A DNA stretch of 24,391 nucleotides from a virus: the IMG/VR virus record IMGVR_UViG_3300046692_000116, positions 1 to 24,391 of that record; one strand, written 5' to 3'. The translations under genes were made by a program, and so were the position numbers. Positions 66 to 20,893 of this stretch are shown piece after piece; positions within the stretch are counted from its first letter, which is position 1; each line of letters opens with the position of its first letter. The notes under the pieces are model-generated. The model was not told where the DNA came from. It did not search any database and saw only the letters and a program-made list of their open reading frames with translations.

Positions 66-437
66 TCACATCAATTCAATCGGGTATCCATCGACGCCGT
101 AGGTCACGACCTTGTGGCCGTGGTCTATCATCTGCTTAGCGCTGTCATGGTGGTGTTTGCATAGCGACTGCAGGTTTGAAGGATCGAAGAATAGATCCAT
201 GTCGCCGTTGTGCTTGCGGATATGGTCGACGACCGTTGCGGCCGTGACTTCCTCGGTGATGAGGCAGAACCTGCACAGCGGCTCAATGCTCAACTGCGCA
301 TCACGCATGGTGCGCCATCGCTTGCCATTATAAAGGCGCCTATAGAGGCGCGCATCGGCACTGCGGTAGTCTGAACTGGTTGCGGGAGCTGGACTTGAAC
401 CAGCGACCTTCAGCTTATGAGGCTGACGAGCTACCAT
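66..437 (-). CDS. HNH endonuclease, start uncertain
   Basis: The C-terminal 90 residues form an HNH nuclease domain: a PLCRFC cysteine pair, VVDH (first His), a central NLQSLC (Asn) and CKHHHD (last His plus metal ligands). The order and spacing match the short phage HNH proteins that usually sit beside terminase genes and assist packaging-site cleavage, which suggests the packaging module lies just left of the window. The domain normally includes the preceding segment ARLYRRLYNGKRWR, so the internal ATG at 308 is probably too late. However, no ATG, GTG or TTG lies in frame between that segment and the end of the tRNA-Met gene. The only upstream ATG (437) is inside the tRNA. Either translation starts in the tRNA precursor, a non-canonical start is used, or the gene lost its start. 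The domain call is firm; the 5' end is not. Confidence 0.75.
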   Translation of the reverse strand: MVARQPHKLKVAGSSPAPATSSDYRSADARLYRRLYNGKRWRTMRDAQLSIEPLCRFCLITEEVTAATVVDHIRKHNGDMDLFFDPSNLQSLCKHHHDSAKQMIDHGHKVVTYGVDGYPIELM

Positions 438-453
438 GCTGCTCTATCCCGCA
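377..453 (-). tRNA. tRNA-Met or tRNA-Ile2 (anticodon CAU)
   Basis: A full cloverleaf can be folded on the minus strand: acceptor UGCGGGA/UCCCGCA, D-stem GAGC/GCUC, anticodon stem UCAGC/GCUGA with loop CUCAUAA, T-stem GCUGG/CCAGC with loop UUCAAGU, then discriminator A and an encoded CCA. It lacks the three G-C anticodon-stem pairs of initiator tRNA, so it is an elongator Met or a lysidine-modified Ile tRNA. Confidence 0.95.
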
Positions 454-456
454 AAT

Positions 457-534
457 TGGTCTGTGTGGTTGGATTTGAACCAACGACTCCCGCAGTCCAA
501 GTGCGGTACTCTGGCCAGGCTGAGCTACACACAG
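457..534 (-). tRNA. tRNA-Pro (anticodon UGG)
   Basis: Acceptor CUGUGUG/CACACAG, anticodon stem CCGCA/UGCGG with loop CUUGGAC (anticodon UGG), T-stem GUUGG/CCAAC and encoded ACCA. It reads CCA and, by wobble, other Pro codons. It is separated from the previous tRNA gene by 3 bases, so the two are very likely processed from one transcript. Confidence 0.95.
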
Positions 535-538
535 GTAT

Positions 539-614
539 TGGAGCCGACAGCAGGAATCGAACCCGCGACATCCGAATTACAAAGACGGCGCTCTTCCTTC
601 TGAGCTATGTCGGC
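539..614 (-). tRNA. tRNA-Thr (anticodon UGU), weak anticodon stem
   Basis: Acceptor GCCGACA/UGUCGGC, D-stem GCUC/GAGC, T-stem GCGGG/CCUGC with loop UUCGAUU, discriminator U and encoded CCA. The anticodon loop UUUGUAA gives UGU (Thr, ACA). The anticodon stem CCGUC/UUCGG pairs only at the three outer positions; the two pairs next to the loop are U-U and C-U mismatches, which is unusual for a functional tRNA. Confidence 0.88.
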
Positions 615-619
615 TGAAT

Positions 620-705
620 TGGCGGAAGGCTGAGGAGTCGAACCCCTGACCTTGCGGTCCCCTCGGTTTTCAAGACCGATTGCCAGCCACTCAGCGGCGC
701 CTTCC
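620..705 (-). tRNA. tRNA-Ser (anticodon UGA)
   Basis: Acceptor GGAAGGC/GCCUUCC, anticodon stem UCGGU/ACCGA with loop CUUGAAA (anticodon UGA), the long variable arm expected of a class II Ser tRNA, a T-arm with UUCGACU loop, discriminator G and encoded CCA. It reads UCA. Confidence 0.95.
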
Positions 706-708
706 AAA

Positions 709-794
709 TGGCGGATAGTGATGGGGTCGAACCATCGGAACCTTTCGGTTCTACAGTTTAGCAAACTGCTGCATTGCCACTCTGCCAACTATCC
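709..794 (-). tRNA. tRNA-Ser (anticodon GCU)
   Basis: Acceptor GGAUAGU/ACUAUCC, anticodon arm CAGU/ACUG with loop UUGCUAA (anticodon GCU), a long variable arm with GAACC/GGUUC pairing, T-loop UUCGACC, discriminator G and encoded CCA. It reads AGC/AGU. It is the first tRNA of the five-gene array in the direction of transcription. Confidence 0.95.
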
Positions 795-2683: not shown

Positions 2684-2712
2684 AACTTATGCTATTTTGA
2701 CAAATTTGTCAA
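2684..2712 (-). promoter_or_regulatory. Leftward promoter with operator palindrome (copy 3)
   Basis: The perfect palindrome TTGACAAATTTGTCAA occupies 2697-2712. Read leftward, its first six bases are a consensus -35 (TTGACA), followed after 17 bases by TAAGTT as the -10. The same geometry is seen at 10635-10663 and 20956-20984. The palindrome lies inside the 3' end of the 2687-3244 coding region, so it also encodes residues near that protein's C-terminus. Confidence 0.75.
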
Positions 2713-3244
2713 GATTGTCGTTGGCGGCCGCAGCAAGCCAACCGCGGACTAGTGCGACAGTACGCGCTGCGGCTTCCGCCTCGGTGCACACGCGCAACGT
2801 GACGACAGGATGCCCCAGCGCTGCCAACAAGGGGTGGCGCACCTTCTGGCTATCCGTAAGCACACCTTCTGCGTTCTTGTACTCGATGAGGCGCAACTCT
2901 CCGCCAGGCAGATAGACGCGAAGATCTGGGTCGCCTGCCGCAATGCCGGTTGCCTTGGCTTTCATGCTCTCGTTGCGACTACGGCGACCTGCGTTCATGT
3001 CGCCGGCAATGGTGAATGACTTGCGGCCAATCTTGTCGTGGTCAGCTACGGCTTCAGCGTTGGCCGCATATTCCGGCATGGCGCGAAGAGCGCGCACCGC
3101 CGACGCCTGGAGCACCCATTCTTCGACGGGGGCGCTGGTTACCTTGACGCTCGTGCCGCCGGCCGATATCGTCGTTACGATCCTGACGCGCTTGCCTGCG
3201 ATGCGAGTCGTTTGGGTGGTGGTTTTTGCTTTGGACTTTTTCAT
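2687..3244 (-). CDS. VRR-NUC-type nuclease
   Basis: The 185-residue protein carries the VRR-NUC signature of the PD-(D/E)XK superfamily in its second half: GDPDLRVYL (catalytic Asp), LRLIEYKNAEG (the E-x-K pair), then LTDSQK and a following LLAALGHPVVTLRV strand. Members act as structure-specific or Holliday-junction-type nucleases and are common in phage replication modules. The N-terminal 80 residues are basic and low in recognisable motifs. I chose the ATG at 3244 because it is preceded by GGAGG at good spacing; the longer reading adds 11 residues without a ribosome site. The tail reads AAAANDN then a Lys-rich end encoded by the operator palindrome. It follows the iteron array and the Prim-Pol gene, which fits a role in processing replication intermediates. 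Confidence 0.8.
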   Translation of the reverse strand: MKKSKAKTTTQTTRIAGKRVRIVTTISAGGTSVKVTSAPVEEWVLQASAVRALRAMPEYAANAEAVADHDKIGRKSFTIAGDMNAGRRSRNESMKAKATGIAAGDPDLRVYLPGGELRLIEYKNAEGVLTDSQKVRHPLLAALGHPVVTLRVCTEAEAAARTVALVRGWLAAAANDNLDKFVKIA

Positions 3245-3264
3245 TTCAAAATCCCTCCAAGCAC

Positions 3265-3408
3265 CCATACAAACCATACACCCTAAAGGGTGTGTATGGA
3301 ATGTATGGCTAGATGCTCACTGATTTGTATGGTTTGTATGGCTGTCTGTATGGTTTGTATGGATGCCATACATTCCATACATGTATGGATTTTGTCTGGT
3401 TTGTATGG
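3265..3408. repeat. Iteron-like array of TGTATGG, candidate replication origin
   Basis: Twelve copies of the heptamer TGTATGG or its complement CCATACA lie in 144 bases. They start at 3265, 3274, 3293, 3302, 3326, 3335, 3347, 3356, 3366, 3375, 3382 and 3402. Most occur as pairs spaced exactly 9 bases apart, and both orientations occur. Near one end is the dyad ACACCC/GGGTGT around TAAA (3278-3294). The array lies directly after the Prim-Pol/helicase gene in an otherwise tightly packed operon. Clustered short direct repeats beside a replication initiator are typical of iteron origins; multiple binding sites for a regulator are the alternative. Confidence 0.65.
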
Positions 3409-3409
3409 C

Positions 3410-5548
3410 CTATAGCGGCCACACCAAATTGCCATTTTCGGCCACAAGTTCACGCTTTATGAGGGCCTTTTTTATCCGCATGAAGTTGGTCTGTTTCGTC
3501 CCCTGCGGCGTGCCTGGCTTCGTCAAATCGTAACGATCATAGACAGCTTCACGCCAGTCATTTTCTCGTACGACCATGATGTCGTCTGGGTATCTTGGCC
3601 CCGGTGGGCTATCCACACCGACGGTATGCTGCAACTCGCGAAGGATCTCCAGCGCCTCGGCTTCCTTCTTCCCTGCCTTGGCAACCAGATGCTCGCCGGC
3701 CGTTGGTTCTGCCGCGACGACCACGGGCGCCGTGGTGGGCTCTCCGTCCTCATCTACACCGATCTGTACCGACTTCATGGTGAAGGCTAGCACGTCGCCT
3801 TCCTCGCCATCGTTGGTGCCATCGCAGACAAGCCTATGCCTGCCGCCATCTTTTTTGACCATGAAGGACGCGTCCACAGCACCATCTAGATCGATAGCGC
3901 CCTTCCCTCGCTCGCCGCTCCACGAGCTGTGGTGGATCGCTGTGACGTGCGCTTTTGTCTCGGTAAGAATGTGGTCGCACGACCTGACAAACTTCACCAT
4001 GTCCTTGGATGCGTTCTGGTCGCCAGCACCGAAGACGCGCGTCAGTGTGTCGACGATCACCCAGACACATTTGTGGCCGGTGATGGTCTCTGCGTCCCTG
4101 ATGATCTTGATGACCTCTTCTGCGTCCTTTTGGTCGCGGGTGAAGTCAAGCATACCGCCCATGACAAGCAACGGCACGTCTTTGACGCCATGGTGCTTTC
4201 GGAACGCCATCATGCGTCGCTCAGTGAGCTTCTTACGCTCCGCCGCGACATAGACCACCAAGCCCTGCTGAACCTTGATACCGTGCCAATCCATGCCTGC
4301 TGCTATGTGGCACGCCAGATCGGTAGCAACGACGCTCTTGCCGGTTCCTGGCAGCCCTGAGATGGTGGTGAACTCACCAACACCTAGCCATCCTTTGAGG
4401 ATCGTCTCTTTGGGCTTTCCTTCCTCGATCTCATCGAACCACGTCAGATCGAATCGTTCACGCTTTTTTGGCGTGGTGGTCTCGGTGGCTGGTTGGGCTG
4501 CAGGTTGGGCTGCAGGTTGGGCAGATGCAGCCGCCTCCTTGGCCTTGGCGCGCTCTACGAATGCCGCTACGTCGGCGGGGTCTGAACCGTTGTCGTTGTC
4601 GTGCGACCGATCTGGTATTTGCCGCGGAGAATTGGCCGTCTTGTCCAGGCCTCGTTTAATCTTGTCAACGCACTTGCGCTCACCATCGGTGGCAATGAGT
4701 CCATTTGCGCTTGCCGCATCGATAAGACCAGCCTCAGCCTCGCTTCGACTTAGGTGGCCAGCGGCCACGAGCTCGCCTATGGAACACGCGCTGGCGAATA
4801 GTTGCTGGCCACGCTGGCCTTTTGGCGCTGTCGATAGCTTGGTGAGTTCCATGTCCATGGCTTTGGCCGCATAGCGTGCTGCACCTGTGTCTTCTGGCTG
4901 GTATGTGTATTCTCTCGGTTTGGATTCGGCGATAGGTGCCGACTTAGTGATGACCATATCAATAAGCCATGCTGGCGCATCTGCGAATTCGGGCATACCG
5001 TCGTCATCGTGGTTGATCCACTCATATCGTCGGCCGTCCGCCATGACGCTGCCAGGACCGACGATATAGCCGCCGTCCCCTCGAGTATCGACGCCAGGCG
5101 CGATAGCAGCACGATTGCGCACGCCGTCAACATGCTTGAACATGATGTGTGTGCCGCCGTTTGCCGTGGTGGCTCTGGCTGTTGGCGGCAATGGGCCATG
5201 CCTGGCTTCCATCTCGGCAAGCCATTTGTGGCCGTCACGATCGCCATGGCGATCTAAGTCAAGAACCCACACGCCTAGCGGGCTGCCTGTTGGCAAGCCT
5301 ATTAGCGCTGATGGATGGCGTTCGTTGAACCATATATCAATGATGCGGCTGGACCGCGTTGCATCATTTAGGCCAAATGAAGTATATGGAGCTTTTTCGA
5401 GGAACTCGATGATTTCGCCTGTGGCGTGGTCGATACCCTCGCTTGCTTGTTCACGGCAGGGGAAAACAGCAATGCCCGCAGCAATATAGCTACGGGCAAC
5501 GTCGAGAGGTGTGCGTGTGTTGGCGGGTAGTTTGAATGGTTGTGGCAT
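3410..5548 (-). CDS. Prim-Pol and RepA-like helicase fusion
   Basis: The 712-residue protein joins two replication enzymes. Residues about 15-200 match bifunctional primase-polymerase (Prim-Pol): a VLDLD catalytic Asp pair at 97 and 99, TANGGTH at 128-134 and a VDTRGDGGYIVGPGS stretch near 153. Residues about 385-600 are a RecA-fold ATPase of the AAA_25/RepA-helicase kind, with Walker A GLPGTGKS (398-405), Walker B VWVIVD (Asp 500), and a later AIHHSSW segment. An Ala/Gln/Pro linker with tandem repeats joins them, and a winged-helix-like C-terminus (residues 640-712) follows. It would prime and unwind phage DNA. The ATG at 5548 has GGGAGG just upstream. An iteron-like array begins two bases past the stop, so it may also be the origin-binding initiator. 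Confidence 0.9.
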   Translation of the reverse strand: MPQPFKLPANTRTPLDVARSYIAAGIAVFPCREQASEGIDHATGEIIEFLEKAPYTSFGLNDATRSSRIIDIWFNERHPSALIGLPTGSPLGVWVLDLDRHGDRDGHKWLAEMEARHGPLPPTARATTANGGTHIMFKHVDGVRNRAAIAPGVDTRGDGGYIVGPGSVMADGRRYEWINHDDDGMPEFADAPAWLIDMVITKSAPIAESKPREYTYQPEDTGAARYAAKAMDMELTKLSTAPKGQRGQQLFASACSIGELVAAGHLSRSEAEAGLIDAASANGLIATDGERKCVDKIKRGLDKTANSPRQIPDRSHDNDNGSDPADVAAFVERAKAKEAAASAQPAAQPAAQPATETTTPKKRERFDLTWFDEIEEGKPKETILKGWLGVGEFTTISGLPGTGKSVVATDLACHIAAGMDWHGIKVQQGLVVYVAAERKKLTERRMMAFRKHHGVKDVPLLVMGGMLDFTRDQKDAEEVIKIIRDAETITGHKCVWVIVDTLTRVFGAGDQNASKDMVKFVRSCDHILTETKAHVTAIHHSSWSGERGKGAIDLDGAVDASFMVKKDGGRHRLVCDGTNDGEEGDVLAFTMKSVQIGVDEDGEPTTAPVVVAAEPTAGEHLVAKAGKKEAEALEILRELQHTVGVDSPPGPRYPDDIMVVRENDWREAVYDRYDLTKPGTPQGTKQTNFMRIKKALIKRELVAENGNLVWPL
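4491..4522. repeat. 12-bp tandem repeat encoding the AQPA linker
   Basis: GGTTGGGCTGCA is repeated two and two-thirds times in a row. It encodes the flexible Ala-Gln-Pro linker between the primase and helicase halves of the 3410-5548 protein, so copy-number change would alter linker length in frame. Confidence 0.9.
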
Positions 5549-6045: not shown

Positions 6046-7598
6046 TTGTCGTTGGCAACAGTAGCAAGCGGCATGAGCGCAGCTATGCGCCGACCCAGCC
6101 ACGTAAACTTAGGCACGGCCCAACTATTGCCAAGTGCCTTGTAGCGTGGTCCATCGGCTGCCATGAGCCACCATTGCCCGTCGATCTTCTCCCACATGTC
6201 TTCCGGTCTGGTGCGCGTGATGCGGCGCGCCTTGTAACTGCGCATGGGGATGCGCGTATAGTTGTCGTCAAATCCTTGAAGGCGCTCACACTCCATAGGC
6301 GTAAGACGACGGACTGCTGAAGTGAGGACGTGTGGCTTATCACCACCGCCTTGGCTAGCTCGCAATGCTGTTGCGCCACCCATGAGGCGTACTTCATCAC
6401 GGCTGTTTTGAACAAAAGCGACAGCCGGCTGCATTGTTGTTTTTAGTGGCGGCGAAAACTCGTTGATCGGCATCCCCTGGGATGCCGATGCGTACCAATC
6501 AAATGCGACTATCGGGGCGCCGCGCCCCGATCCGTCTTCACTGGCATCATGGCCTTCGGCAGTAAGTGCGTGAGATATTTCGCCGGTTACGCAGACGGCA
6601 TTAGGACCTTTAGCCTTTATGGTCTGCGTGATTTCTTCTAAAACACCAAGGCCAGAACGTTCTCCTGGCGTGCCGTTTGCGCCTTCTCCAGATCTATCCA
6701 ATGCATCGCGGGCAATTGAATATGCTGTTCCTACAGCCACCATTGTCGTGGTTTCGTAGTCTTGCGAAGAGCCTTCGCGCGTTGCGTCGCAACGCGCGAT
6801 CTCAGGTGCATACACGGCCAGCGACTCGTGACTGTCCTGCTCACGCGCTCGAAGCGGGCCTATTCCTTCTCTCCAGTATCCATCGCCGCTACTTGCAAAG
6901 CCTTTTGCAGTTGCTCCGGCAACGTCTTTCCCCGCTTCTCGGCTCGGCGGAGGATGCCGGAACACGCTTTCGGGCTCAAAAAGAACCGCTGCGGGATCGG
7001 CCCCGTTTCCAAAATCTGCGACAACGAGCACACGCCTGCGTCGTTGGGCCACTCCGAAAAATTGGGCGTCCTTGACAGCCCACGCCGCCCGTCCTTTTGG
7101 TCCAGAGACCATACCGTGACGCGGCCATTTTCCTCTTGCCGGTGGTTCGATGGCGGCATCTGCGCCCACAAGTCCGGCGATGAAGCAGCCGAAGGCGTTG
7201 TCTTTGGTGCTGAGAACTCCGACGACGTTTTCCCAGACGACGTTCCGAAGTCCATTGCCATCTGCAAGCTCATGGGCCAGCCTCACGAATTCGAGTGAAA
7301 GATTGCCGCGCGCGTCGGCAAGTGATTGGCGAAGGCCGGCCACGCTGAACGCCTGGCAAGGCGTTCCACCGCATAGTATGTCGACGCGCCCTAATGTACG
7401 AACGTTGATCTTGGTGAAGTCGCCAAGGTTCGGTACGTCGGGATAGTGGTATGCCAGAACGGCTGATGGAAACTTTTCGATTTCCGAGAAGGCCACTGCC
7501 TGCCAGTTTAGTTCGCGCCAAGCGGCAGAAGCCGCTTCGATGCCGCTGCAAACCGAGAGGAAGCGCAGGCCAGGTTGGTTATCATTCGCGTGTTCCAT
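6003..7598 (-). CDS. C5 cytosine DNA methyltransferase
   Basis: All key motifs of C5-methyltransferases are present in the 531-residue protein: motif I FLSVCSGIEAAS (SAM binding, residues 13-24), motif IV GGTPCQAFS with catalytic Cys81, motif VI ENV (123-125), motif VIII QRRRR (185-189), a long target-recognition region of about 250 residues, motif IX RRLTPMECERLQGF, and motif X ALGNSWAVP. It would methylate cytosine in phage or host DNA; the target sequence cannot be read from sequence. I use the ATG at 7598, which overlaps the upstream stop (TGATG) and leads with MEHANDN; the longer form adds 18 residues inside the neighbouring gene. The C-terminal tail has a second NDN motif. No restriction enzyme lies nearby, so protection of phage DNA from host restriction is the likely role. 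Confidence 0.93.
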   Translation of the reverse strand: MEHANDNQPGLRFLSVCSGIEAASAAWRELNWQAVAFSEIEKFPSAVLAYHYPDVPNLGDFTKINVRTLGRVDILCGGTPCQAFSVAGLRQSLADARGNLSLEFVRLAHELADGNGLRNVVWENVVGVLSTKDNAFGCFIAGLVGADAAIEPPARGKWPRHGMVSGPKGRAAWAVKDAQFFGVAQRRRRVLVVADFGNGADPAAVLFEPESVFRHPPPSREAGKDVAGATAKGFASSGDGYWREGIGPLRAREQDSHESLAVYAPEIARCDATREGSSQDYETTTMVAVGTAYSIARDALDRSGEGANGTPGERSGLGVLEEITQTIKAKGPNAVCVTGEISHALTAEGHDASEDGSGRGAPIVAFDWYASASQGMPINEFSPPLKTTMQPAVAFVQNSRDEVRLMGGATALRASQGGGDKPHVLTSAVRRLTPMECERLQGFDDNYTRIPMRSYKARRITRTRPEDMWEKIDGQWWLMAADGPRYKALGNSWAVPKFTWLGRRIAALMPLATVANDNYQSLPSARSVSHA

Positions 7599-7981
7599 CA
7601 AAACGGCGCTTCCCTCAAAGCTTCCCGCACACCCTCTGCGCACCCTTGCCACGCCGCCTTGACCAGCATCAACTGCATGAGTTCGTCGAAATGCGCCAGT
7701 TCAGTCAGGCCGCCATTGGCTGCGATGAACTCGCCAACTCTCTCGACGCCCTTCTCGAGCGCCTTGACCTCATACAAACTAATCCTGTCCAACTTGGTTA
7801 GGTCTCCTGTTGCGACGATGCACGGTTTGCAGAGGTAGCCGGGGTCTTTATCTCCGGGTGTGCTGCGGCCAATGCCGAATGCTAGACACCCGCACGCCTT
7901 GCAAACAGTGGGGTTATGTTTCTCATCCACGGTCGGCGAGAATGGAATGATTGGCTTGCCTGTTGGTGGGAGCTTGGTCAT
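7598..7981 (-). CDS. Zinc-ribbon protein, DUF6511-like
   Basis: The 127-residue protein has a CKACGC pair and a YLCKPC pair about 25 residues apart, forming a probable zinc ribbon, followed by a helical half (YEVKALEKGVERVGEFI, then MLVKAAWQGCAEGVREALREAPF). The C-terminal pattern resembles the DUF6511 phage family, whose role is unknown. It overlaps its upstream neighbour by ATGA and its downstream neighbour by TGATG, so it is translated as part of the three-methyltransferase group and may assist or modulate them. Confidence 0.7.
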   Translation of the reverse strand: MTKLPPTGKPIIPFSPTVDEKHNPTVCKACGCLAFGIGRSTPGDKDPGYLCKPCIVATGDLTKLDRISLYEVKALEKGVERVGEFIAANGGLTELAHFDELMQLMLVKAAWQGCAEGVREALREAPF

Positions 7982-8811
7982 GCTGCATCACCAAAAAGCG
8001 AGAGTTGCGGCTGGCGGTTATCGTTTGCGGGAGCGGACACGGTTATTGCTGGCGCAACTATTGGTGTAGCCACGCACGCCTCTGTAAAGTCGACGCAGAC
8101 GATCTCGCACATCGGCGAAACACCTTTCCATGCATCTAGATAAAAAGATGTATCAACACCACAACCGGAATCGAAATGCAGGCCGGTTAGCTTTTGGAAC
8201 TTAACGGCTCTGCCTTCCTTCTGACGCTCGTAGTTCTGTCGGCCGCTATAGTTGAAGCCCGCAGACCCTTGCGGCACGATAAACGCGCCATAGTCAGCTA
8301 GGTGTGCGGCGATATCGATGACGTGAAACTCAAAATCCTTGCCGGTATAGCGCGGACTGTTGCGATCACGTCTGATGTTGCCAAATGGCGGATTGCTGAT
8401 CGCAGAATCGAAATGCCCCAGCCCCATCTCCAAAACGTCGAAAACATCGGCACAGATCCACTCTGCCTCTGGAAGCAGCTTTTGACCCACGGCCAAATAG
8501 TCTGGATTGCGCTCGATGCAGGTGATCTTGGGGCCGCCAGCCTTAAACCTGCTGCGCTGCCAAATGGCATATGATAGCATGCCAATACCGGCACACAGGT
8601 CGATGACGCGTCCTCCGCCGGCATCGATAGCGAAATCGAACGCCATATCGAACGGTGTGAAGAATGCGCCGGCTGCGCTGTTGATGTGCGTCGCGCCTTC
8701 ATGCCAGTTGCGATAGACGAACTCCTTGTCTTCCTCGGTTAGTGTTGGTTTGGTAAGGATGTCTAGCGCTTGGTTGTGGGCTCGCAGTTCTGGCTTCGTG
8801 AGTTTGGCCAT
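7978..8811 (-). CDS. N6-adenine-type DNA methyltransferase with clamp-binding tail
   Basis: The 277-residue protein has a SAM-binding motif I (IDLCAGIGMLS, residues 70-80), an acidic motif II (CIERNP) and the catalytic NPPF tetrapeptide (140-143) of amino-methyltransferases, most likely adenine-N6. The last residues are RQPQLSLFGDAA; QLSLF (269-273) matches the canonical bacterial beta-clamp-binding pentapeptide QL(S/D)LF. It is preceded by a flexible PANDN linker, so the tail is exposed and could tether the enzyme to replicating DNA. The window also encodes a beta clamp (14756-15814). It starts on the stop of the MT-A70 gene (TGATG). Confidence 0.88.
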   Translation of the reverse strand: MAKLTKPELRAHNQALDILTKPTLTEEDKEFVYRNWHEGATHINSAAGAFFTPFDMAFDFAIDAGGGRVIDLCAGIGMLSYAIWQRSRFKAGGPKITCIERNPDYLAVGQKLLPEAEWICADVFDVLEMGLGHFDSAISNPPFGNIRRDRNSPRYTGKDFEFHVIDIAAHLADYGAFIVPQGSAGFNYSGRQNYERQKEGRAVKFQKLTGLHFDSGCGVDTSFYLDAWKGVSPMCEIVCVDFTEACVATPIVAPAITVSAPANDNRQPQLSLFGDAA

Positions 8812-10674: not shown

Positions 10675-12432
10675 CTAGAATGGTATGTCGTCATCCATCT
10701 GGCGTTCCCAATCGGCCATGCCTTTGCGATTGTCGTTTGCTGCTGGTGGTGTGTTGTCGTTGGGGGCGCCAACGCGGTGAGCCGCAATGTCAGGATATTT
10801 TGGGTTTCTCGAATAGTCTAATTGCACCTCTTCCGTGCTGAACAACTCATGTTGCCGCTCAAGCCACTCGATTGGCGATTTTGGGAATGGCCGCTTGCCC
10901 CCGTGCGCCAACCACCAGCGATCAGCTTTTGATTTTGGATAGCCGGTATGCGCACAGCAATGCCACTCACTGACCGACTTCATGCCGACAAGGTATGTGC
11001 ATTTCACTGAATCTGGCTTTCCGTCCTTGCCTGGATGATGGTAGAACGTCCTGCTCTTGACCTCATGCCAAGGCTTCTCTGTAGACAGTACCGGCGCGTC
11101 GGCGGCCTGCGCCGTGATCTTCTCTTCCTCATTAGGCGGGAAGACATAGCCGCAGCACTGGCATTTCATGATGGATATGGCGATCATCTCGCCGCACCCA
11201 TAGTTTCCGTTGACGTCCTTTGTTGCGCCAGTTGTTCCCTCTTGCGGGCATAGCTTTTTGGGTTGCTCTCCTAAACCGCTACCGGGCTCTTTCGGGCGAA
11301 TCTGATCGATAGGCCCATGATACGCCAGGTTCTTGCCGTGGTCGGCAACGAGGCAATCAGTCTTGCCTGCGCAGTTGCGCGTACCGCGTCCCAAGATCTG
11401 CACTAACTTGCCGGGTGACTTCGTCGATAGGATCAACGAAATAAAATCGACGAACGGAAAGTTTGTGCCGGTGGTGATCATCGATACAGACGAAATCGCC
11501 CAATACTTGCCAGATCTGAAGCCCTCGAAAATCTCTTTTGTCTGGTGCGAATTGTCGCTGGTAAGGACGGCGCACGTCCTTCCGTGCCGACGGATAGCCT
11601 CTGCAACATGGTTGGCGTTGTCTTTGCTAGTGCTGAAGAATAGACCGGCCTTGCGTCCTTCTGAGAGAACCATGTCCTCAGCTACGGCCGCCTCAATGAT
11701 GCGCTCCGCAGCTTCCGATACCTGGCCAGGAATGTATTCTCCGCCACGAGTGCCAATGCCCTTAAGGTCTATCTTGCTGGTGGTGCGCTGGCTGGTGAGG
11801 TTGGTGAGGTAGCCTTTCTCGATCAACTCGCCAAGGCCGATTTCATAGACGACATCGTCGAACAACTTGAACTTCTGCGGAACGCCAATCTCAACCAGTT
11901 CTGGTGGCGTGTCGTCATCGTCGAGAGCATCGGTCAGCCTACCAGAATCCATGCGGTAGTCGGTGGCGGTCGTGCCGCAAGTCCGGCTATCTGGGTTTTT
12001 CTCGCGAACCTCTTTGAAGAATTTGCCGTATTGCGTATTCGTGTTTCTCGATATGGCGTGAGCTTCGTCGACAATGACAAGGTCGATTTCGCCGATCAAA
12101 TCGACCTTGTTCCACACCGATTGAATGCCGCAGAACAAGACCTGCGCATTGGCGTCCCGTCGGTTCAGACCGGCCGAATAGATGCCTGCCGGCGCGAATG
12201 GCAACAGGCCGATGAACTCTTTGAAATTTTGCTCCACGAGGGGTGCACTGTGAGTGACATTGAGGATGCGCATTTCCGGATAGTCGGCAAGCAACTCCTC
12301 GATAAGTTTGGCGATAACCAGAGCCTTGCCCGCTCCGGTCGGGAGGACGATAAGGCCGTTGCCGCCGCCGTTGCGCCAATATTCATACAGCGCGTCAAGA
12401 GATTCGCGCTGATAATATCGTAGCTCAAGCAT
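10675..12432 (-). CDS. SF2 DEAH-box helicase with SSB-like C-terminal tail
   Basis: The 585-residue protein carries SF2 helicase motifs: Q-like ELRYYQ at the start, Walker A LPTGAGK (30-36), DEAH (122-125), the TAT motif in GTTATDYR, and QILGRGTRN (motif VI). A cysteine-rich segment (CPQE, CGEM, CQCCGYVF) after the helicase core probably binds zinc. The last residues are RQMDDDIPF, identical to the acidic tip by which bacterial SSB recruits partner proteins, preceded by a flexible linker with two NDN motifs. It likely remodels DNA at phage forks or recombination sites. The ATG at 12432 overlaps the upstream stop (TGATG); a TTG one codon earlier is possible. Confidence 0.9.
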   Translation of the reverse strand: MLELRYYQRESLDALYEYWRNGGGNGLIVLPTGAGKALVIAKLIEELLADYPEMRILNVTHSAPLVEQNFKEFIGLLPFAPAGIYSAGLNRRDANAQVLFCGIQSVWNKVDLIGEIDLVIVDEAHAISRNTNTQYGKFFKEVREKNPDSRTCGTTATDYRMDSGRLTDALDDDDTPPELVEIGVPQKFKLFDDVVYEIGLGELIEKGYLTNLTSQRTTSKIDLKGIGTRGGEYIPGQVSEAAERIIEAAVAEDMVLSEGRKAGLFFSTSKDNANHVAEAIRRHGRTCAVLTSDNSHQTKEIFEGFRSGKYWAISSVSMITTGTNFPFVDFISLILSTKSPGKLVQILGRGTRNCAGKTDCLVADHGKNLAYHGPIDQIRPKEPGSGLGEQPKKLCPQEGTTGATKDVNGNYGCGEMIAISIMKCQCCGYVFPPNEEEKITAQAADAPVLSTEKPWHEVKSRTFYHHPGKDGKPDSVKCTYLVGMKSVSEWHCCAHTGYPKSKADRWWLAHGGKRPFPKSPIEWLERQHELFSTEEVQLDYSRNPKYPDIAAHRVGAPNDNTPPAANDNRKGMADWERQMDDDIPF

Positions 12433-12605
12433 CAAGCCGCCTCGCTGCGTGCCTGAGTGGCCGCATCGATCTGCGCCAATCTAATCGCGTTCTCGCGCAC
12501 GACGATCCAGCCAGCAGCGCGCAGTGCGGCTAGCTGCTCGACGGTGATGATGTCGCGCGGGTGTTTGGCGCCGGTGGCGACAACGGCCCGTACAGCCACA
12601 CTCAT
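12432..12605 (-). CDS. Hypothetical protein, 57 aa
   Basis: A 57-residue reading frame fills the gap between the sigma-like and helicase genes exactly, with ATGA overlap at its start and TGATG overlap at its end. This tight coupling is the main evidence that it is real. The sequence has an Ala/Val-rich start and a TVEQLAALRAAGWIVV segment that could form a small helix-turn-helix or other helical fold. I recognise no family. Confidence 0.7.
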   Translation of the reverse strand: MSVAVRAVVATGAKHPRDIITVEQLAALRAAGWIVVRENAIRLAQIDAATQARSEAA

Positions 12606-13151: not shown

Positions 13152-13517
13152 TCAATTGGCGTTGGTGGCGCCGTCTTGGTTGCGACCGTCAATAACGGCC
13201 CATATCTTGCGGACAGCAGCCGGCACTAGGGCAGCCCGCTCCTGCGGCATGTGCATCATGTGGCAATCGCTCTCTGGCCACCCCGTTGCCCACGATAAAG
13301 CTCGGTATGCCTCGCCGCGTTGCAGGTGACCCGATTGCCATAGTTGGTCGAATGCGCGGTGAGCAGCACTACGGGCGGCGTGCGTCTCTGCATCGGCAAG
13401 TGGCTTATTGCCCCAAGACCACAGACCGCAATGGTCGTGTCGTTTACCGAAACGTGTTTCTGAGCGAACTGCACGCTCTCCGCATATCGGGCATATCGGG
13501 CGCGGCTTCTTCGTCAT
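13152..13517 (-). CDS. Zinc-finger protein, DUF3268-like
   Basis: The 121-residue protein opens with CPICG and has a HDHCGLWSWGNKPLADAET stretch, the layout of the zinc-finger DUF3268 family. The remainder, AHRAFDQLWQSG, EAYRALSWATG and ESDCHMMHM, matches that family's helical half. The function is unknown. I use the ATG at 13517, which overlaps the upstream stop as ATGA and has GAGGAGG 5-6 bases before it; a reading to 13550 is inside the neighbour. It lies next to the PD-(D/E)XK nuclease, a pairing consistent with a recombination or repair role. Confidence 0.78.
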   Translation of the reverse strand: MTKKPRPICPICGERAVRSETRFGKRHDHCGLWSWGNKPLADAETHAARSAAHRAFDQLWQSGHLQRGEAYRALSWATGWPESDCHMMHMPQERAALVPAAVRKIWAVIDGRNQDGATNAN

Positions 13518-14455
13518 GCCGCCTCCTCTCGGCTCGCGCCGTCGGTCCATGTTGTGCCATCGGGCATGCGGTAGGTGATTGTCTCAGCCTCTTCGTCGAC
13601 CTCAAGAAGCTCCATGCCAGCCAGCATCTTCGGTACGAATAAGTGGGCTGGACAGCCAGCATCTTGCTCCGCAAGTGACAACGGCTTGCTATGGCGCGCA
13701 CAATCCCAACCTGCATTGCCATCCATCAATGGTGTGGCGTGAAGGCACGAACGACAATGCGCTCGAGGCATTTCCTCGCCCCAGCACACCGCAGCCTGCC
13801 GACAGAACATGCCCCTGAAATCGTCACGCTTGGTGCACAGGCGCGATGGCGGTTCCGGCATGTTGATGATGCGCTCGATACGCGCTTCCGCCCTGATGGC
13901 CGCCTCCATGTCAAGGCGCACCCGTTCTAGGTAAATGTCTTCATCGTCTTTGTTGGTGCACATGTATTGGCATCGATCGAGACCGCGCTTGTACATATAG
14001 AATTGCATGGTGGAATAGTGGAGCGGCATGGCTTTCTGCACGCCGTCCTTCACTAACTTGCGGAACTTCTCTGCCTTGCTGGACTTGCATTCGACGACAT
14101 GCATTTTGCCAGGAGCTTCCGGTAAGCCGATTGCCTGTCCGTCGATTTTGCCACGCAAATGGCCACCAGCGCCGCGAACGCGAGCCTGCTGTTCGCTGAC
14201 TTCGCAACCGATAAGGCGAAGCAGATCAAGCAGGCGCTCTTCCTCCAGGTTCCCTCGCTCGAAGATGCGCCGCTTCTGCCATGTGATGACTTCCGGCACA
14301 GAGGCGCGCCGAAATGCCAGCCAGATGGCGCGGTCGCATTCCACACCGATGTCGCCGGCAGGAACGCCGATGGATTCCCAATCGTCACCTTGGGATTCTA
14401 GTGCGTCTTGGATGGCGAGGAGCGTGGATGGTGTTGGGCGCGGGATTGGTGCCAT
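13514..14455 (-). CDS. PD-(D/E)XK exonuclease-like protein
   Basis: The 313-residue protein has the RecB/Cas4-like nuclease core: an early ECDRAIWLAFR segment, the catalytic Asp in GHLRGKIDG, and the E-x-K pair in MHVVECKSSKAEKFRKL, followed by a YSTMQFYMY helix typical of the fold. A C-terminal cysteine-rich part (MFCRQAAVCWG, HCRSCLH, GWDCARH) likely binds zinc or an iron-sulfur cluster. It probably supplies the 5'-3' exonuclease step for the phage recombination system that includes the Sak4-like and DUF669-like proteins. Its ATG overlaps the upstream TAA as TAATG. Confidence 0.82.
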   Translation of the reverse strand: MAPIPRPTPSTLLAIQDALESQGDDWESIGVPAGDIGVECDRAIWLAFRRASVPEVITWQKRRIFERGNLEEERLLDLLRLIGCEVSEQQARVRGAGGHLRGKIDGQAIGLPEAPGKMHVVECKSSKAEKFRKLVKDGVQKAMPLHYSTMQFYMYKRGLDRCQYMCTNKDDEDIYLERVRLDMEAAIRAEARIERIINMPEPPSRLCTKRDDFRGMFCRQAAVCWGEEMPRAHCRSCLHATPLMDGNAGWDCARHSKPLSLAEQDAGCPAHLFVPKMLAGMELLEVDEEAETITYRMPDGTTWTDGASREEAA

Positions 14456-14755: not shown

Positions 14756-15814
14756 CTAGACTCGCATCGGCATCAACACAGCCAGCAACTCCGCCGCCTT
14801 ATCCGACGTGAATATGGCCGGCGATCCACCATCACCCAGCGCCAACCGAATATCGCCAGTAGGGAAGATGCCGATCAGTTCGTTCAGGTATGTCGCGTTG
14901 AAACCAATATCGATCGGCTCCCCGCCATAGGTGACAATGATTTCATCTGTAGCGCTGCCCTGATCGGGATTGTTAACCTCAAGCTTCGCTGCGCCATCAG
15001 CGAACGACAGTTTTACGGCGCGACCACGCTCAGATGAAACAACAGCAACACGGCCGGCGGCCTGGCGCATGTCATCGCTGCCAAAGACGATATTCTTGTC
15101 GTTCTGCGTGGGAATGACGCGCTGATAGTCTGGAAACGTGCCGTCAATCAGTTTGCTGGTTAGGGAGAAGTCGCCGGCATCGATGCGGATTTTCTGGCTG
15201 GAAACGGATACAGACACGGTGCCTTTCGGTAGAAGACCAACCGTCTTGCGCGGAACGATGACGCCCTCGAAAGCCGGTACTTCCGGTCCACGATTGCGCG
15301 CCAGACGGTGGCCGTCAGTAGCGACCGCCACGACGTTGCCATCGATGACGTGCAGGAAGATGCCGTTAAGATAGTAACGCGTCTCCTCCGTCGAGATCGC
15401 AAACGAAACAGGCGCAAACAGGCTGGAGAGGTCGATATCGAAGCTTGCCGTATACGACCCGCCGTCCAACGACGGAAAGTCATCAGCGGCTAGCGCGCCA
15501 AGCGCAAAGCGGCTGCGGCCAGATGTGACGATCAACTGTCCTTTGTCCGTGGACAGAGTGATTTCGCCGCCTGCCTTCTTGGCGATGTCGGCAAGCAGCT
15601 TGGCGTTGACACAGACTGCGCCAGGCTTTGAAACCGATGCGGCGACAGTGTCCGTGGCGACGATGTCCAAATCGGTGCCGGTGACGCGCAGGCCGTCGGC
15701 GCTTGCGGTCAGCAGGACGTTGGATAGGATGGGAATAGTATTGCGCGCCTCGACGACGCGGCCGACGTTGGTGATAACGCGCGCCAAGTCGACACGCTGA
15801 ATGGTGAGCTTCAT
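14756..15814 (-). CDS. dnaN: DNA polymerase III beta sliding clamp
   Basis: The 352-residue protein matches the full three-domain bacterial clamp: it begins MKLTIQRVDLARVI, contains PILSNVLLTA, VATDGHRLA (domain 2), FPDYQRVIP (domain 3 entry) and ends VLMPMRV, the conserved clamp C-terminus. It is close to the usual length (about 370), so it is likely functional as a ring. Phage-encoded clamps are not common; this one would let the phage run or hijack Pol III and recruit proteins with clamp-binding peptides such as the 7978-8811 methyltransferase. It heads a unit: a 9-bp hairpin, CACCAC and GAGGAGAC precede its ATG. Confidence 0.95.
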   Translation of the reverse strand: MKLTIQRVDLARVITNVGRVVEARNTIPILSNVLLTASADGLRVTGTDLDIVATDTVAASVSKPGAVCVNAKLLADIAKKAGGEITLSTDKGQLIVTSGRSRFALGALAADDFPSLDGGSYTASFDIDLSSLFAPVSFAISTEETRYYLNGIFLHVIDGNVVAVATDGHRLARNRGPEVPAFEGVIVPRKTVGLLPKGTVSVSVSSQKIRIDAGDFSLTSKLIDGTFPDYQRVIPTQNDKNIVFGSDDMRQAAGRVAVVSSERGRAVKLSFADGAAKLEVNNPDQGSATDEIIVTYGGEPIDIGFNATYLNELIGIFPTGDIRLALGDGGSPAIFTSDKAAELLAVLMPMRV

Positions 15815-16332: not shown

Positions 16333-16494
16333 TTATGCGAAGAAGCCGCCAGAATACAGCAGGCCCATCTCAATACCGACTGAAACGATAGCGCCCCAAA
16401 AGCTCCAGTTGCCTTTGGGCTCACCGTGCTTCACGCCAGCAATCGCCACAGATACGGCACTAAGCGCAATCAGGGTTACTTGCGGCCAACCCAT
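16333..16494 (-). CDS. Small membrane protein, 53 aa
   Basis: A 53-residue protein with two hydrophobic segments, about residues 5-20 (VTLIALSAVSVAIAG) and 32-53 (FWGAIVSVGIEMGLLYSG), separated by a polar GVKHGEPKGNW turn. The ATG overlaps the stop of the DUF669-like gene as TGATG. The function is unknown; as a coupled mini membrane protein it resembles the one at 9446-9607. Confidence 0.72.
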   Translation of the reverse strand: MGWPQVTLIALSAVSVAIAGVKHGEPKGNWSFWGAIVSVGIEMGLLYSGGFFA

Positions 16495-17108
16495 CACTTG
16501 CTACCCCAAGGCCGCCGGCCCGTAGCCGCAGTAGCCGCAGAAGCGGCCTGCCGTTGCGCTGGTGCGGGCTTGTTGTCATTGGCCGCAGCAGGCGCCTCAT
16601 TGCGCTTCTTGCCTTGCGTGCCGTCACCAATGATGCCTATTTCCGGAACAGGCTCCTTGGCAGCGTCGTCGGTGTAGAAGAACCGCTCGATCTGGTTTTT
16701 GTCCTTGTAGAACGTCCCATCCGGCTTCTTGTTGCCGATCTGAATGCCGACCTCGGCGACGAACGACTTGAACAGCAAATCGTCTGTGTCGGTGTCTGCG
16801 GTGATCTCCTCGCCGACGGCTCGACCGAATCTATCGAACATCGGCTTGCCGTATTTGTAGGCGCCGTGCTGGTAGCCATCGGAATGGATGATGGTCCAGT
16901 ATGCCCAGAACTTGCGGCCCTTGAGTTCTTCAGGCGCGATTACCTCGAACGTGATTTCAGCTTGGAAACCCTTGGTGTCTGTTGTTGCCGGAAGGTTGAT
17001 AGCCTCTGCCTGAAGCTGGGCATACATGTGTGGCAGGATACCGCCGCCACCGCCCTGCTTTTCGGTGTTCTCGAAATCCGCTTCGTAGTTATTCCCGATC
17101 TTAGCCAA
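16494..17108 (-). CDS. DUF669-like ssDNA-binding/recombination protein, TTG start
   Basis: The 204-residue protein resembles DUF669, a phage family that binds single-stranded DNA and works with Sak-type recombinases: ITFEVIAPEELKGRKFWAYWTI and FDRFGRAVGEEI match its GRK-type core, and the C-terminal 60 residues form an Ala/Lys-rich flexible tail with AAANDNKP. The start is a TTG: AAGGAGAC, preceded by CACCAC, stands 3 bases before TTG-GCT-AAG, and the frame to an upstream ATG (17171) would put 21 extra residues across the leader and into the neighbour's end. Unlike typical SSB, it lacks an acidic DDDIPF tip; that tip is on the helicase instead. Confidence 0.78.
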   Translation of the reverse strand: MAKIGNNYEADFENTEKQGGGGGILPHMYAQLQAEAINLPATTDTKGFQAEITFEVIAPEELKGRKFWAYWTIIHSDGYQHGAYKYGKPMFDRFGRAVGEEITADTDTDDLLFKSFVAEVGIQIGNKKPDGTFYKDKNQIERFFYTDDAAKEPVPEIGIIGDGTQGKKRNEAPAAANDNKPAPAQRQAASAATAATGRRPWGSK

Positions 17109-17130
17109 AATAGTCTCCTTAGTGTGGTGT

Positions 17131-17322
17131 TTATGCGGCCCGCGACAGGTCTTTCGCGCGGGCTGTGGCAAGCCGCTTGTCGGTAAACAAGAGTGGCTTG
17201 TTGTCGTTGGTGACGTGAGCCCAAAGATTGCGCTCTACTTTTGCTTCAATGCCGTACTGGCCGTTGTCCTCCGTGTAGACGCGGTGTTTGCGGCCTTTGA
17301 CTGGGTTGCAGAAGGCGATCAT
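17131..17322 (-). CDS. Hypothetical protein, 63 aa
   Basis: A small basic protein with a GRKHRVYTEDNGQYGIEAKVERN beta-rich core and a C-terminal Arg/Lys/Ala helix. It includes the VTNDNKP variant of the NDN motif. Its ATG overlaps the stop of the Sak4-like gene as ATGA, so it is translated with it. No family recognised; its position between the two recombination genes suggests an accessory role. Confidence 0.72.
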   Translation of the reverse strand: MIAFCNPVKGRKHRVYTEDNGQYGIEAKVERNLWAHVTNDNKPLLFTDKRLATARAKDLSRAA

Positions 17323-18140
17323 GCCGCTTCTGCCTCGGCCACGCCGTTGAACGGAGCCGGGAAGAACTTCGAAAGCTCTTTGTATCCTTGGCCCTTGCGG
17401 TAGGTGATGGCGTCCGGCATGGAATAGCGATTCTTCGCGACGAATCCGGCTCCTTCGGTCAAGTGGATCTGGCGCTCCTTGCCGCCCTCTGCGTGGGTTA
17501 CCTCCTTCTTGACGCCGACTTCCTTCGACTTCAGGGAAACCCGGTAATTCAAGAATCCAACGATGTCGCTGCGTTCGCGAATAAGCGCAGCTCCGCGCTT
17601 GCGAAGTTTCACTTGATACCGGTCGTATGGGTCAGTCACTGGGCTGTCGAAACGCTTGATCTCTGGGTGGGCCAGAATGACAACAGCAATGCCGCGTTCA
17701 TTGAGCGCTTCGCACGCACCCATGAATTCGCCCCATTCGACATCCCCCTGAACGTCGCCCTGCCCAAATGCGGCCGGCGACCCCTTGTCGTTTGAGCCGA
17801 TGGAATCTGCGCCGATACGAAGGCATGTTGCGGCATTGACGATTGGTTCAATGCCATCGGCGCTGTCGAATATCACGGTTTGGAAATCGTGATCTTCGGT
17901 GATCAACTCCCCGACGATCTCCTTCAGCGAATCCCAATCCTCGATGACTTCCGATGGGAGGTCCACATCGGCAGGCGGCTTCTCGCCGTGGGAGTGCAGA
18001 TAAATAGCGTTCGGGAACTCGGCAGCAAGACTGGTCTTGCCAACGCCATCGACGCCATACAGCAGAACGGTAGGTGGATTGGTTGATGTCTGTGTAGTTC
18101 GCTTTAATCGCGACAGTCTCGACTTGTAGCCTTCGGACAT
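17319..18140 (-). CDS. Sak4-like AAA ATPase (phage recombinase)
   Basis: The 273-residue RecA-fold ATPase has Walker A GVDGVGKTS (29-37), a VIFDSADG Walker B, and a sensor-like VVILAHPEIKRF. Its length and overall layout match the Sak4/AAA_24 phage family, which anneals or assists strand exchange together with DUF669/SSB partners and an exonuclease. All three kinds of partner occur downstream in this operon. The ATG at 18140 has AAGGAGAA at good spacing. Confidence 0.85.
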   Translation of the reverse strand: MSEGYKSRLSRLKRTTQTSTNPPTVLLYGVDGVGKTSLAAEFPNAIYLHSHGEKPPADVDLPSEVIEDWDSLKEIVGELITEDHDFQTVIFDSADGIEPIVNAATCLRIGADSIGSNDKGSPAAFGQGDVQGDVEWGEFMGACEALNERGIAVVILAHPEIKRFDSPVTDPYDRYQVKLRKRGAALIRERSDIVGFLNYRVSLKSKEVGVKKEVTHAEGGKERQIHLTEGAGFVAKNRYSMPDAITYRKGQGYKELSKFFPAPFNGVAEAEAA

Positions 18141-20259: not shown

Positions 20260-20552
20260 CACGCTGCTCCTTCCGTTGGTGTGCCCGGCGTAAAAATCCG
20301 ACGCTTGGTGAAATCGACTTGAACGACGTTGTCATCCACGGCCTGCTTGGTGGCGACGGGTGGCGTAGGCACGTCGTCGTCATCGACGAGGTCAAGCTCC
20401 CATTCGTGGAACTGCAGAACCTCCAACGTAGGCGCCACACGGACGAGAACGATGGTTCCCATGAAGCCGATGACTATGCCGAAAACATTGGTATTCATCT
20501 TGTGCTCGACGACGTCGCCGAGCTCGATGCAATCGCAATCAGGGCAACTCAT
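20259..20552 (-). CDS. Small protein with Cys motif and SH3-like core
   Basis: The 97-residue protein starts with CPDCDC, then ELGDVVEHKMNTNVFGIVIGFMGTIVLVRV, which has the strand pattern of the KOW/SH3-like repeats in the next gene, suggesting a common origin. An acidic Pro-rich linker and a basic FTKRRIF end follow. It is coupled at both ends (ATGA and TGATG). The function is unknown. Confidence 0.72.
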   Translation of the reverse strand: MSCPDCDCIELGDVVEHKMNTNVFGIVIGFMGTIVLVRVAPTLEVLQFHEWELDLVDDDDVPTPPVATKQAVDDNVVQVDFTKRRIFTPGTPTEGAA

Positions 20553-20893
20553 GCCGCCACCCGCAAGGCATATTCCGTCACAACGGCGCCAGCCCGCATA
20601 TCTTCGTCGACATGGTTGTCATTGGCAGCCACGCGCACCACGCTTACGGGCATTCGTCCGGATGTCGTCGAACAGCCGCCATTATGTGCGACCAAACGAG
20701 TAACGCGATCTGGATTGTTGTCGTTGGCCGCTCTGGGAGCGCCGCGCGGAATGCCCGCGCCGTATGATCTGTTCAGGCGCTTGTAGATCGCGGAAGGTTT
20801 CATGTTCCATAGTTTGGCGATCTGGGCGATACTCACCCCTTCCGCCTTCATGGCATACATATCGGCCGTAGCCGCATCACTTCTGAGCTGCAT
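20549..20893 (-). CDS. HTH protein, first gene of the leftward operon
   Basis: The 114-residue protein has a helix-turn-helix of resolvase/homeodomain-like type near residues 13-42: YAMKAEGVSIAQIAKLWNMKPSAIYKRLNR. The remainder is a flexible tail with two NDN motifs (RAANDNN, VAANDNH). As the first gene after the leftward promoter, it is well placed for a role in early regulation or replication control. The ATG at 20893 follows GAGGAGAC by 3 bases, with CACCAC further upstream. Confidence 0.75.
   Translation of the reverse strand: MQLRSDAATADMYAMKAEGVSIAQIAKLWNMKPSAIYKRLNRSYGAGIPRGAPRAANDNNPDRVTRLVAHNGGCSTTSGRMPVSVVRVAANDNHVDEDMRAGAVVTEYALRVAA

Follow-up and report, generated by a model that had tools for sequence, protein, structure and literature searches.

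Why does a phage DNA helicase end in the docking peptide of bacterial single-stranded DNA-binding protein (SSB)? Bacterial genome maintenance relies on the SSB tip as its main docking signal, and the tip is also a drug target. In the window, which is the whole stretch of DNA analysed here, a virus fragment of 24,391 bases, this tip closes a helicase gene on the minus strand (Table 1). The virus infects soil bacteria.

Table 1 Features of the window and of compared loci, with positions and basis of assignment.
Feature	Position	Strand	Basis
RadD-like SF2 helicase gene	10675..12435	-	ResIII + Helicase_C; phrog_16; RadD matches
SSB-Ct type tip DDDIPF, extreme C-terminus	10678..10695	-	Sequence and conservation
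Variable, predicted-disordered linker (..PNDNTPPAANDNRKGMADWERQM) with two NDN repeats	10696..10767	-	pLDDT 44-57; codon changes
Cysteine cluster C396, C414, C425, C428	11152..11250	-	Invariant in 66-row alignment; position like RadD zinc region
DUF669-like putative SSB	16494..17171	-	phrog_2300; OB-fold structure matches
Sak4-like ssDNA annealing protein, adjoining the DUF669-like SSB gene	17319..18140	-	phrog_124, AAA_24
Sliding clamp (DnaN-like), ends LMPMRV; tipless here, tipped in other phages	14756..15814	-	
Cas4-domain exonuclease, same replication/recombination block	13514..14455	-	phrog_1990
Primase-polymerase/helicase, same block	3410..5548	-	Prim-Pol + AAA_25
DUF6511-like small protein, ends REAPF (weak resemblance, not counted as tip)	7598..7981	-	Profile matches in relatives
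Five tRNA genes (Met, Pro, Thr, Ser, Ser), one end of fragment	377-794	-	
Small cysteine-rich phrog_23504 proteins	L265:7658-7876, L266:7676-7927, L259:7745-7957		Ends DYDVPF, IGDIPF, QIDIPF

The C-terminal end of the helicase

The helicase ORF (12435-10675, minus strand) has 586 codons counted from a TTG, and the start of its relatives is the next codon, ATG at 12432. It reads ...MADWERQMDDDIPF-stop, and the final codons, GAT GAC GAC ATA CCA TTC TAG, were read from the sequence as DDDIPF-stop. The exact SSB tip that a sequence-only reading had reported within the terminal RQMDDDIPF (10678-10704, minus strand) is therefore real. It has the form of the SSB-Ct motif, [IV]-P-F after acidic residues at a free C-terminus. 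The SSBs of five out of five Rhizobiales host genomes end in DDDIPF, preceded by M or L, and the last seven residues of the helicase (MDDDIPF) are identical to such host SSB ends, so that the match reaches position -7. The SSB OB-fold domain (PF00436) is absent from the helicase, for which Pfam gives ResIII, Helicase_C and DEAD only.

A wider tip class was defined as two acids among positions -4 to -6 followed by [ILVM]-P-[FYW]. The window has 378 stop-to-stop frames of 40 aa or longer, and the helicase is the only one to end in this class. Local composition gives a chance per C-terminus of 7e-9 for the exact DDDIPF tip and of 1.7e-5 for the class, and four control C-terminal patterns gave 0, 0, 0 and 2 matches in the ORFs of the helicase loci. 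In the AlphaFold model, blocks of the tail (residues 561-586, the last 26) have mean pLDDT values of 44-57, which supports the predicted flexible linker ahead of the tip that the earlier reading had proposed.

A search of the five Rhizobiales genomes for [DE][DE]x[ILVM]PF-stop gave 11 matches, 1-3 per genome of 4.8-6.6 Mb. The matches comprise six SSBs, two prophage helicases and three others (L284, no gene; L285, a K/A-rich protein that is presumably topoisomerase I-like; L288, a 195-aa protein). Two further prophage helicases end in variants missed by the pattern (EDIPF and ADDIPF), and one prophage helicase copy (L271) ends without the tip. A scan of 2.9 million viral contigs for genes ending in DDDIPF-TGA gave at least 120 stretches, and 116 ORFs were usable among the matches listed, four having been dropped as too short or lacking a start. 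Among the matches listed, most of the best-matched families were SSBs (phrog_44, 34; phrog_18154, 30; phrog_7364, 23, overlapping; Pfam SSB, 33, and ResIII, 5), and RadD-like helicases of phrog_16 accounted for 5 of the 116.

Relationship to RadD

The earlier reading had not noticed what kind of motor bears the tip. PHROGs assigns the protein to phrog_16, ‘DNA helicase’, and a PDB sequence search found E. coli RadD as its best solved relative (E 3.2e-42, residues 1-369). RadD was also the top Foldseek match (E ~1e-34, ~600 columns) of the AlphaFold model, which has a mean pLDDT of 87.1 and a pTM of 0.66, while superposition of the whole chain on RadD gave a TM of just ~0.5. The window helicase is a phage relative of E. 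coli RadD, a more specific assignment than a generic helicase, and is built from an SF2 motor, a cysteine cluster and a RadD-type C-terminal domain (CTD). RadD has two four-Cys zinc fingers (384/387/411/425 and a second one) between motor and CTD (PMC9049331); the cysteine cluster of the window helicase is placed like this zinc region, and a role in zinc binding is putative.

The two proteins share the SF2 core, a cysteine cluster in a like position and the C-terminal domain, but E. coli RadD reads the SSB tip and itself lacks one (it ends LAHELRG), whereas the phage relative bears the tip. SSB-Ct is a ligand of E. coli RadD and stimulates it; the binding site is placed in the RD1 pocket in the available text of PMC10238739 and, in disagreement, in the CTD in that of PMC9821108. 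We compared the RD1 reading pocket residues R21, R49 and R145. The window helicase keeps R21 and R151, and R49 is replaced by E54; as judged from these RD1 residues, the pocket is not intact. Arg49 is replaced by an acid in 42/55 tip helicases and in 52/59 tipless ones, Arg21 is retained in 14/55 and 3/59, and the position of Arg145 holds R or K in 53/55 and 59/59, respectively. Most RD1-pocket arginines of RadD are gone in the phage relatives, and since Arg49 has become D/E in most phage rows with or without the tip, there is no link between losing the reader site and gaining the tip.

A resemblance was also seen between the RadD C-terminal domain and the model of the DUF669-like OB protein (window 16497-17126), with VIA Z scores of 5.4-5.8 over ~100 residues. 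The helicase may thus consist of motor, OB-like domain, linker and tip, a weak suggestion given Z scores below the clear level.

Conservation and distribution of the tip among helicases

Close relatives of the helicase include those of Rhizobium phage 16-3 (75%) and RHph_X2_25 (79%), and prophages of Rhizobium and Agrobacterium (five prophage loci from a single-protein search). In a sample of 30 viral loci, the C-terminus was readable in 27 (L019, L026 and L030 were excluded), and 26 of these end in [IV]-P-[FY] after acidic residues; the sole exception, L018, has lost the tail. Pairwise comparison of codons among the 27 gave 354 identical, 547 synonymous and 152 amino-acid changing pairs at positions -1 to -3, and 366, 268 and 419, respectively, at -4 to -6. 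The corresponding values were 323, 177 and 1606 at -7 to -12, and 275, 290 and 2243 at linker positions -13 to -20, where the codons are unaligned and change is therefore overstated. The last codons are under purifying selection, as judged from these counts, next to a freely changing linker. Across 55 tip helicases, position -1 is F in 53 and Y in 2, -2 is P in all 55, -3 is I in 44 and V in 11, and -5 is D/E in 54.

This selection makes it very improbable that the tail is a functionless relic, gained with an SSB gene by fusion and persisting by descent: a weakly supported OB-fold-like domain plus tail layout (Z 5.4-5.8) common to the DUF669 SSB and the helicase would fit such an origin, but the tip also recurs in distant branches with unrelated linkers.

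A tail-blind sample was obtained by searching with the helicase core alone (alignment A3). The 80 loci comprised 19 with the tip, one with a tip-like end, 58 with none and two running off the contig end. The conservation expected by the earlier reading thus held among close relatives but not beyond them, where 19 of 78 readable homologues carry the tip and 58 of 78 end without it. The tip is optional among the more distant homologues, and its absence from these 58 indicates that the motor is able to work without it. Many tipless members end directly after the core, so tail and tip behave as an add-on; the L185 helicase ends AMYL. When 115 distinct cores were placed on a tree (55 with the tip, 60 without), the tip label needed 8 changes, compared with 38.4 for shuffled labels, and at least 7 changes are forced by supported branches. 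Five loci picked for DDDIPF (L080, L082, L105, L109 and L145) are in this tree; they are unfit for frequencies, and some of the 8 changes depend on them.

Carriers of the tip other than the helicase

Among 59 whole records, the exact-pattern tip occurred once in 31 and twice in none, and a reversed control pattern occurred in 0/59. The tip lies at the helicase stop in 30 of the 31 records (assigned by script in 25 of 26 viral records, by the same arithmetic in L200 and by annotation in four named phages). The remaining record is Pseudomonas phage phipa4, in which the carrier is the sliding clamp (phrog_947, E 2e-79). All three clamps examined in this group are tipped (L264:7851-8990, L343:160-1317 and L344:3830-5053); their ends are EDDIPF in the Pseudomonas phage, DDDIPF in the Burkholderia phage (KL1) and DDEIPF in the Rhodobacter phage (RcTitan). 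Neither phipa4 nor RcTitan has a tip on its helicase. A tip on the DUF669 protein was found in L216, L228, L240 and phage TP-778L.

A looser pattern gave 19 matches in the other 28 records, namely nine helicases, four DUF6511 proteins, three phrog_23504 proteins and three non-genes. The phrog_23504 matches are small cysteine proteins encoded beside a tipless helicase, whose gene end they overlap (L265, L266 and L259), in Salmonella phage BP63, Rhizobium phage RHEph04 and Vibrio phage 033B. Helicase ends missed by both patterns are EDDLPF (HD01), DPDYVPF (SA80RD) and DSIPY (L041). L244 may carry two tips.

In 105 loci, the tip was found on the helicase only in 54, on another carrier only in 11, on both in 1 and on neither in 39, these last having no tip on any ORF in the stretch covered. 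The raw Fisher p for carrier exclusivity is 0.0013, with L259 and L266 set by hand as ‘other tip’ (only -4 acidic), L263 as tip helicase (DPDYVPF), L258 counted for its DUF6511 protein and L254 for an other-frame tail; without these rows the contrast is weaker. Exclusivity is not significant on the tree, where five independent pairs on supported branches gave a median p of 0.5, and strict exclusivity was rejected on this value and on the one both-carrier locus. The earlier proposal that the docking signal had moved from the ssDNA binder to the motor is consequently borne out in part: seven phages have the tip on DUF669 or the clamp, and the helicase is tipless in all six that were read (KL1's is not among these), but exclusivity of the carriers does not survive correction for kinship. 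Relocation of the tip between carriers is suggestive.

DUF6511 was considered as a clean substitute carrier and rejected. The DUF6511 proteins of L191, L206, L227 and SynJY40 end in EVPF, but tails vary within the family (ECPF, DDPPF, GVPS and APF), and the window's own DUF6511-like protein ends EAPF although the helicase has the tip. As a separate observation, the DUF6511 gene overlaps the end of tipless helicases in L215, L222-L227, L206 and L191, starting 4 bases ahead of the helicase stop or farther upstream in a different frame, and its tails are often PF. In Streptococcus phage PY1 (L254), an SSB-tip-like tail lies in another frame directly after the annotated SSB stop.

The putative DUF669-like SSB and its PW tail

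The earlier reading was right that the phage's own DUF669-like protein lacks the acidic tip; it ends RRPWGSK, with PWGSK at 16497-16511 (minus strand), and the conservation of this PW tail had gone unremarked. The best solved match of its model is the OB-fold protein PrgE (VIA Z 9.4, rmsd 5.3, 119 aligned); many further OB-fold matches have Z of 4-6 and perhaps reflect only a common arrangement. In a viral structure library the model matched DUF669 structures (E 1e-9), DUF669 being the name of many named matches, while Pfam DUF669 was reached neither by the window protein nor by that of phage 16-3. From these models, the protein is an OB-fold SSB candidate adjoining Sak4, with putative ssDNA binding.

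A profile of DUF669-type neighbours of Sak4 was run over the locus set and gave 126 matches, some records occurring twice. With a PW-type tail defined as [PSAKR]W within the last 14 residues, 117 have this tail, six an acidic tip and three neither. For the 89 with a labelled helicase, the counts are 48 PW and no acidic tip beside tip helicases, and 36 PW, three acidic and two other beside tipless ones (PW/acidic, Fisher 0.086). P206 and W207 are two of the four columns that are at least 90% conserved, beside two invariant ones, among 28 DUF669-like sequences with 16 to 96% identity to the window protein. PW is also repeated in DUF669 linkers (five times in PaMx25, four in HD01 and four in SA80RD).

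In phage HK620, the DUF669 protein is a proven SSB that binds ssDNA, and its tail NDYPPF is needed for binding and recruitment of Sak4 (available text of PMC5928155). By analogy, the PW tail of DUF669-type phage SSBs is a candidate second docking signal, perhaps for Sak4. The HK620 pair resembles that of the window in the DUF669 SSB-Sak4 gene arrangement and in the requirement of a C-terminal tail for partner binding, but its docking tail sits on the SSB (PMC5928155); in the window it is the helicase that bears the acidic tip, and the SSB ends in a PW tail instead.

A probable docking peptide on the motor

The helicase C-terminus is most likely a true docking peptide of the SSB-Ct type that has been moved to the motor, to judge from its sequence, its conservation and its predicted disorder. 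It resembles the bacterial SSB-Ct in its six last residues (seven with Rhizobiales hosts), a free C-terminal Phe and a predicted-disordered tether, and differs in standing on an ATP-driven motor, whereas the bacterial one stands on an ssDNA coat protein. Its sequence, conservation, predicted disorder and distribution come directly from the analysis; the partner, the effect and the division of labour with the PW tail are inferred. On balance we consider it probable that the tethered tip docks host SSB-interacting proteins, while the DUF669 SSB would coat ssDNA and act through its separate PW tail. In the infected cell, phage ssDNA would probably be coated by the tipless DUF669-type OB-fold SSB, whose PW tail likely serves a partner of its own, such as the adjacent Sak4 (as HK620 suggests). 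The DDDIPF tail would put the motor into the pockets for the host SSB tip on PriA, RecO, RecQ, RecG, DnaG, chi and the like, and the motor might thereby bring these proteins to intermediates of phage replication and recombination or hold them away. Two tasks that one SSB tail performs would thus be divided between two phage proteins. In other phages the tip sits on the clamp, on the SSB or on a small protein encoded next to the helicase. Since Arg49 of RD1 is lost regardless of the tip and the RadD site is disputed, docking in trans to host SSB-interacting proteins is favoured, with a phage partner and self-docking as rivals.

An unlikely alternative is that the tip docks a phage-coded partner (Sak4, the Cas4 exonuclease, the primase or a phage polymerase), its likeness to host SSB being shared chemistry and no mimicry. 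The helicase shares its block with Sak4, DUF669, Cas4 and the clamp, and there is precedent in Sak4 of HK620, which reads NDYPPF (PMC5928155), and in the acidic tails of T7 gp4, which bind gp5 (PMC12593628). Sak4, DUF669 and Cas4 are nevertheless present also where the helicase is tipless, and Sak4 in particular occurs with tipped and tipless helicases, so the tip does not track it. The agreement with host SSBs out to -7 (M/L) is also closer than an acidic-aromatic tail requires.

It appears improbable that the helicase is the target of its own tip, which would then act as a pseudo-SSB ligand within one molecule or from copy to copy and make the motor constitutively active or self-inhibited. 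Such self-docking would fit the binding of SSB-Ct by RadD, in either proposed site, and the position of the tip directly after the CTD, but the tail is low in confidence in the model and the RD1 arginines are mostly gone, and on these grounds it ranks below the leading reading. It stays as a rival because PMC9821108, in its available text, places the SSB site in the RadD CTD.

A broader proposal, plausible but somewhat short of probable, goes beyond the preferred reading of host-protein docking by the helicase tip. Phages with a block of Sak4, DUF669 SSB, Cas4 and RadD-like helicase would usually have at most one host-SSB-type tip per genome, borne by varying replication proteins (helicase, sliding clamp, SSB or the small cysteine protein encoded next to the helicase); the SSB would address phage partners through its PW tail. 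The docking of host factors would then belong to the genome as a whole and be independent of ssDNA binding, and in the RadD family a reader of the tip would have turned into its bearer.

Comparison with known systems

In Rhizobium phage 16-3, the helicase p088 (75% identical) ends DDEVPF and is annotated as a DEAD/DEAH helicase, with its tail unmentioned; the p078/p077 block, with a DUF669-like protein ending NPWSK and Sak4, shows no substantive difference from the window. The tail of the T7 gp4 helicase-primase is not known to have the sequence DDDIPF. A precedent for a phage helicase with an acidic docking tail is T7 gp4, which likewise docks a partner by its acidic C-terminal tail but belongs to another helicase family and has the phage polymerase as its known partner (available text of PMC12593628). 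What PMC13381803 presents in its available text is a gp2.5-like SSB, with no bearing on the tip. Among the open-licence papers listed in literature searches, none describes in its title or abstract a RadD-like phage helicase or a phage clamp that bears an SSB-type tip, or a DUF669 protein with a PW tail; the conserved PW tail of DUF669 phage SSBs is apparently undescribed.

Widespread phages with the SSB signal on a motor or clamp provide a natural separation of binding ssDNA from recruiting partners. Phages with the tip also offer a test of which host factors are needed for phage replication, and are a source of ready-made tip peptides.

An ANDN tetrapeptide near C-termini

A side observation concerns the tetrapeptide ANDN, which is strongly enriched near the C-termini of Rhizobiales phage proteins. 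In the window it occurs in the helicase linker (10705-10767, minus strand) and in the C-terminal parts of ORFs 7978-8811, 2687-3277, 16494-17171 and 20549-20893. In 55.7 kaa of phage loci it was counted 67 times, against 13 for its 11 other permutations combined, and it lies within 50 aa of the C-terminus in 38/47 proteins. Non-alpha phages had 0 in 43 kaa, and host chromosome stretches had 4 in 114 kaa (60 kb round the prophage omitted) and 3 in 54 kaa. The host tmRNA tags start with ANDN (ANDNYAEARLAA and ANDNNAKEYALAA), and the half of the ssrA tag bound by SspB begins in a similar way. As a lead, ANDN might be mimicry of an adaptor or protease signal.
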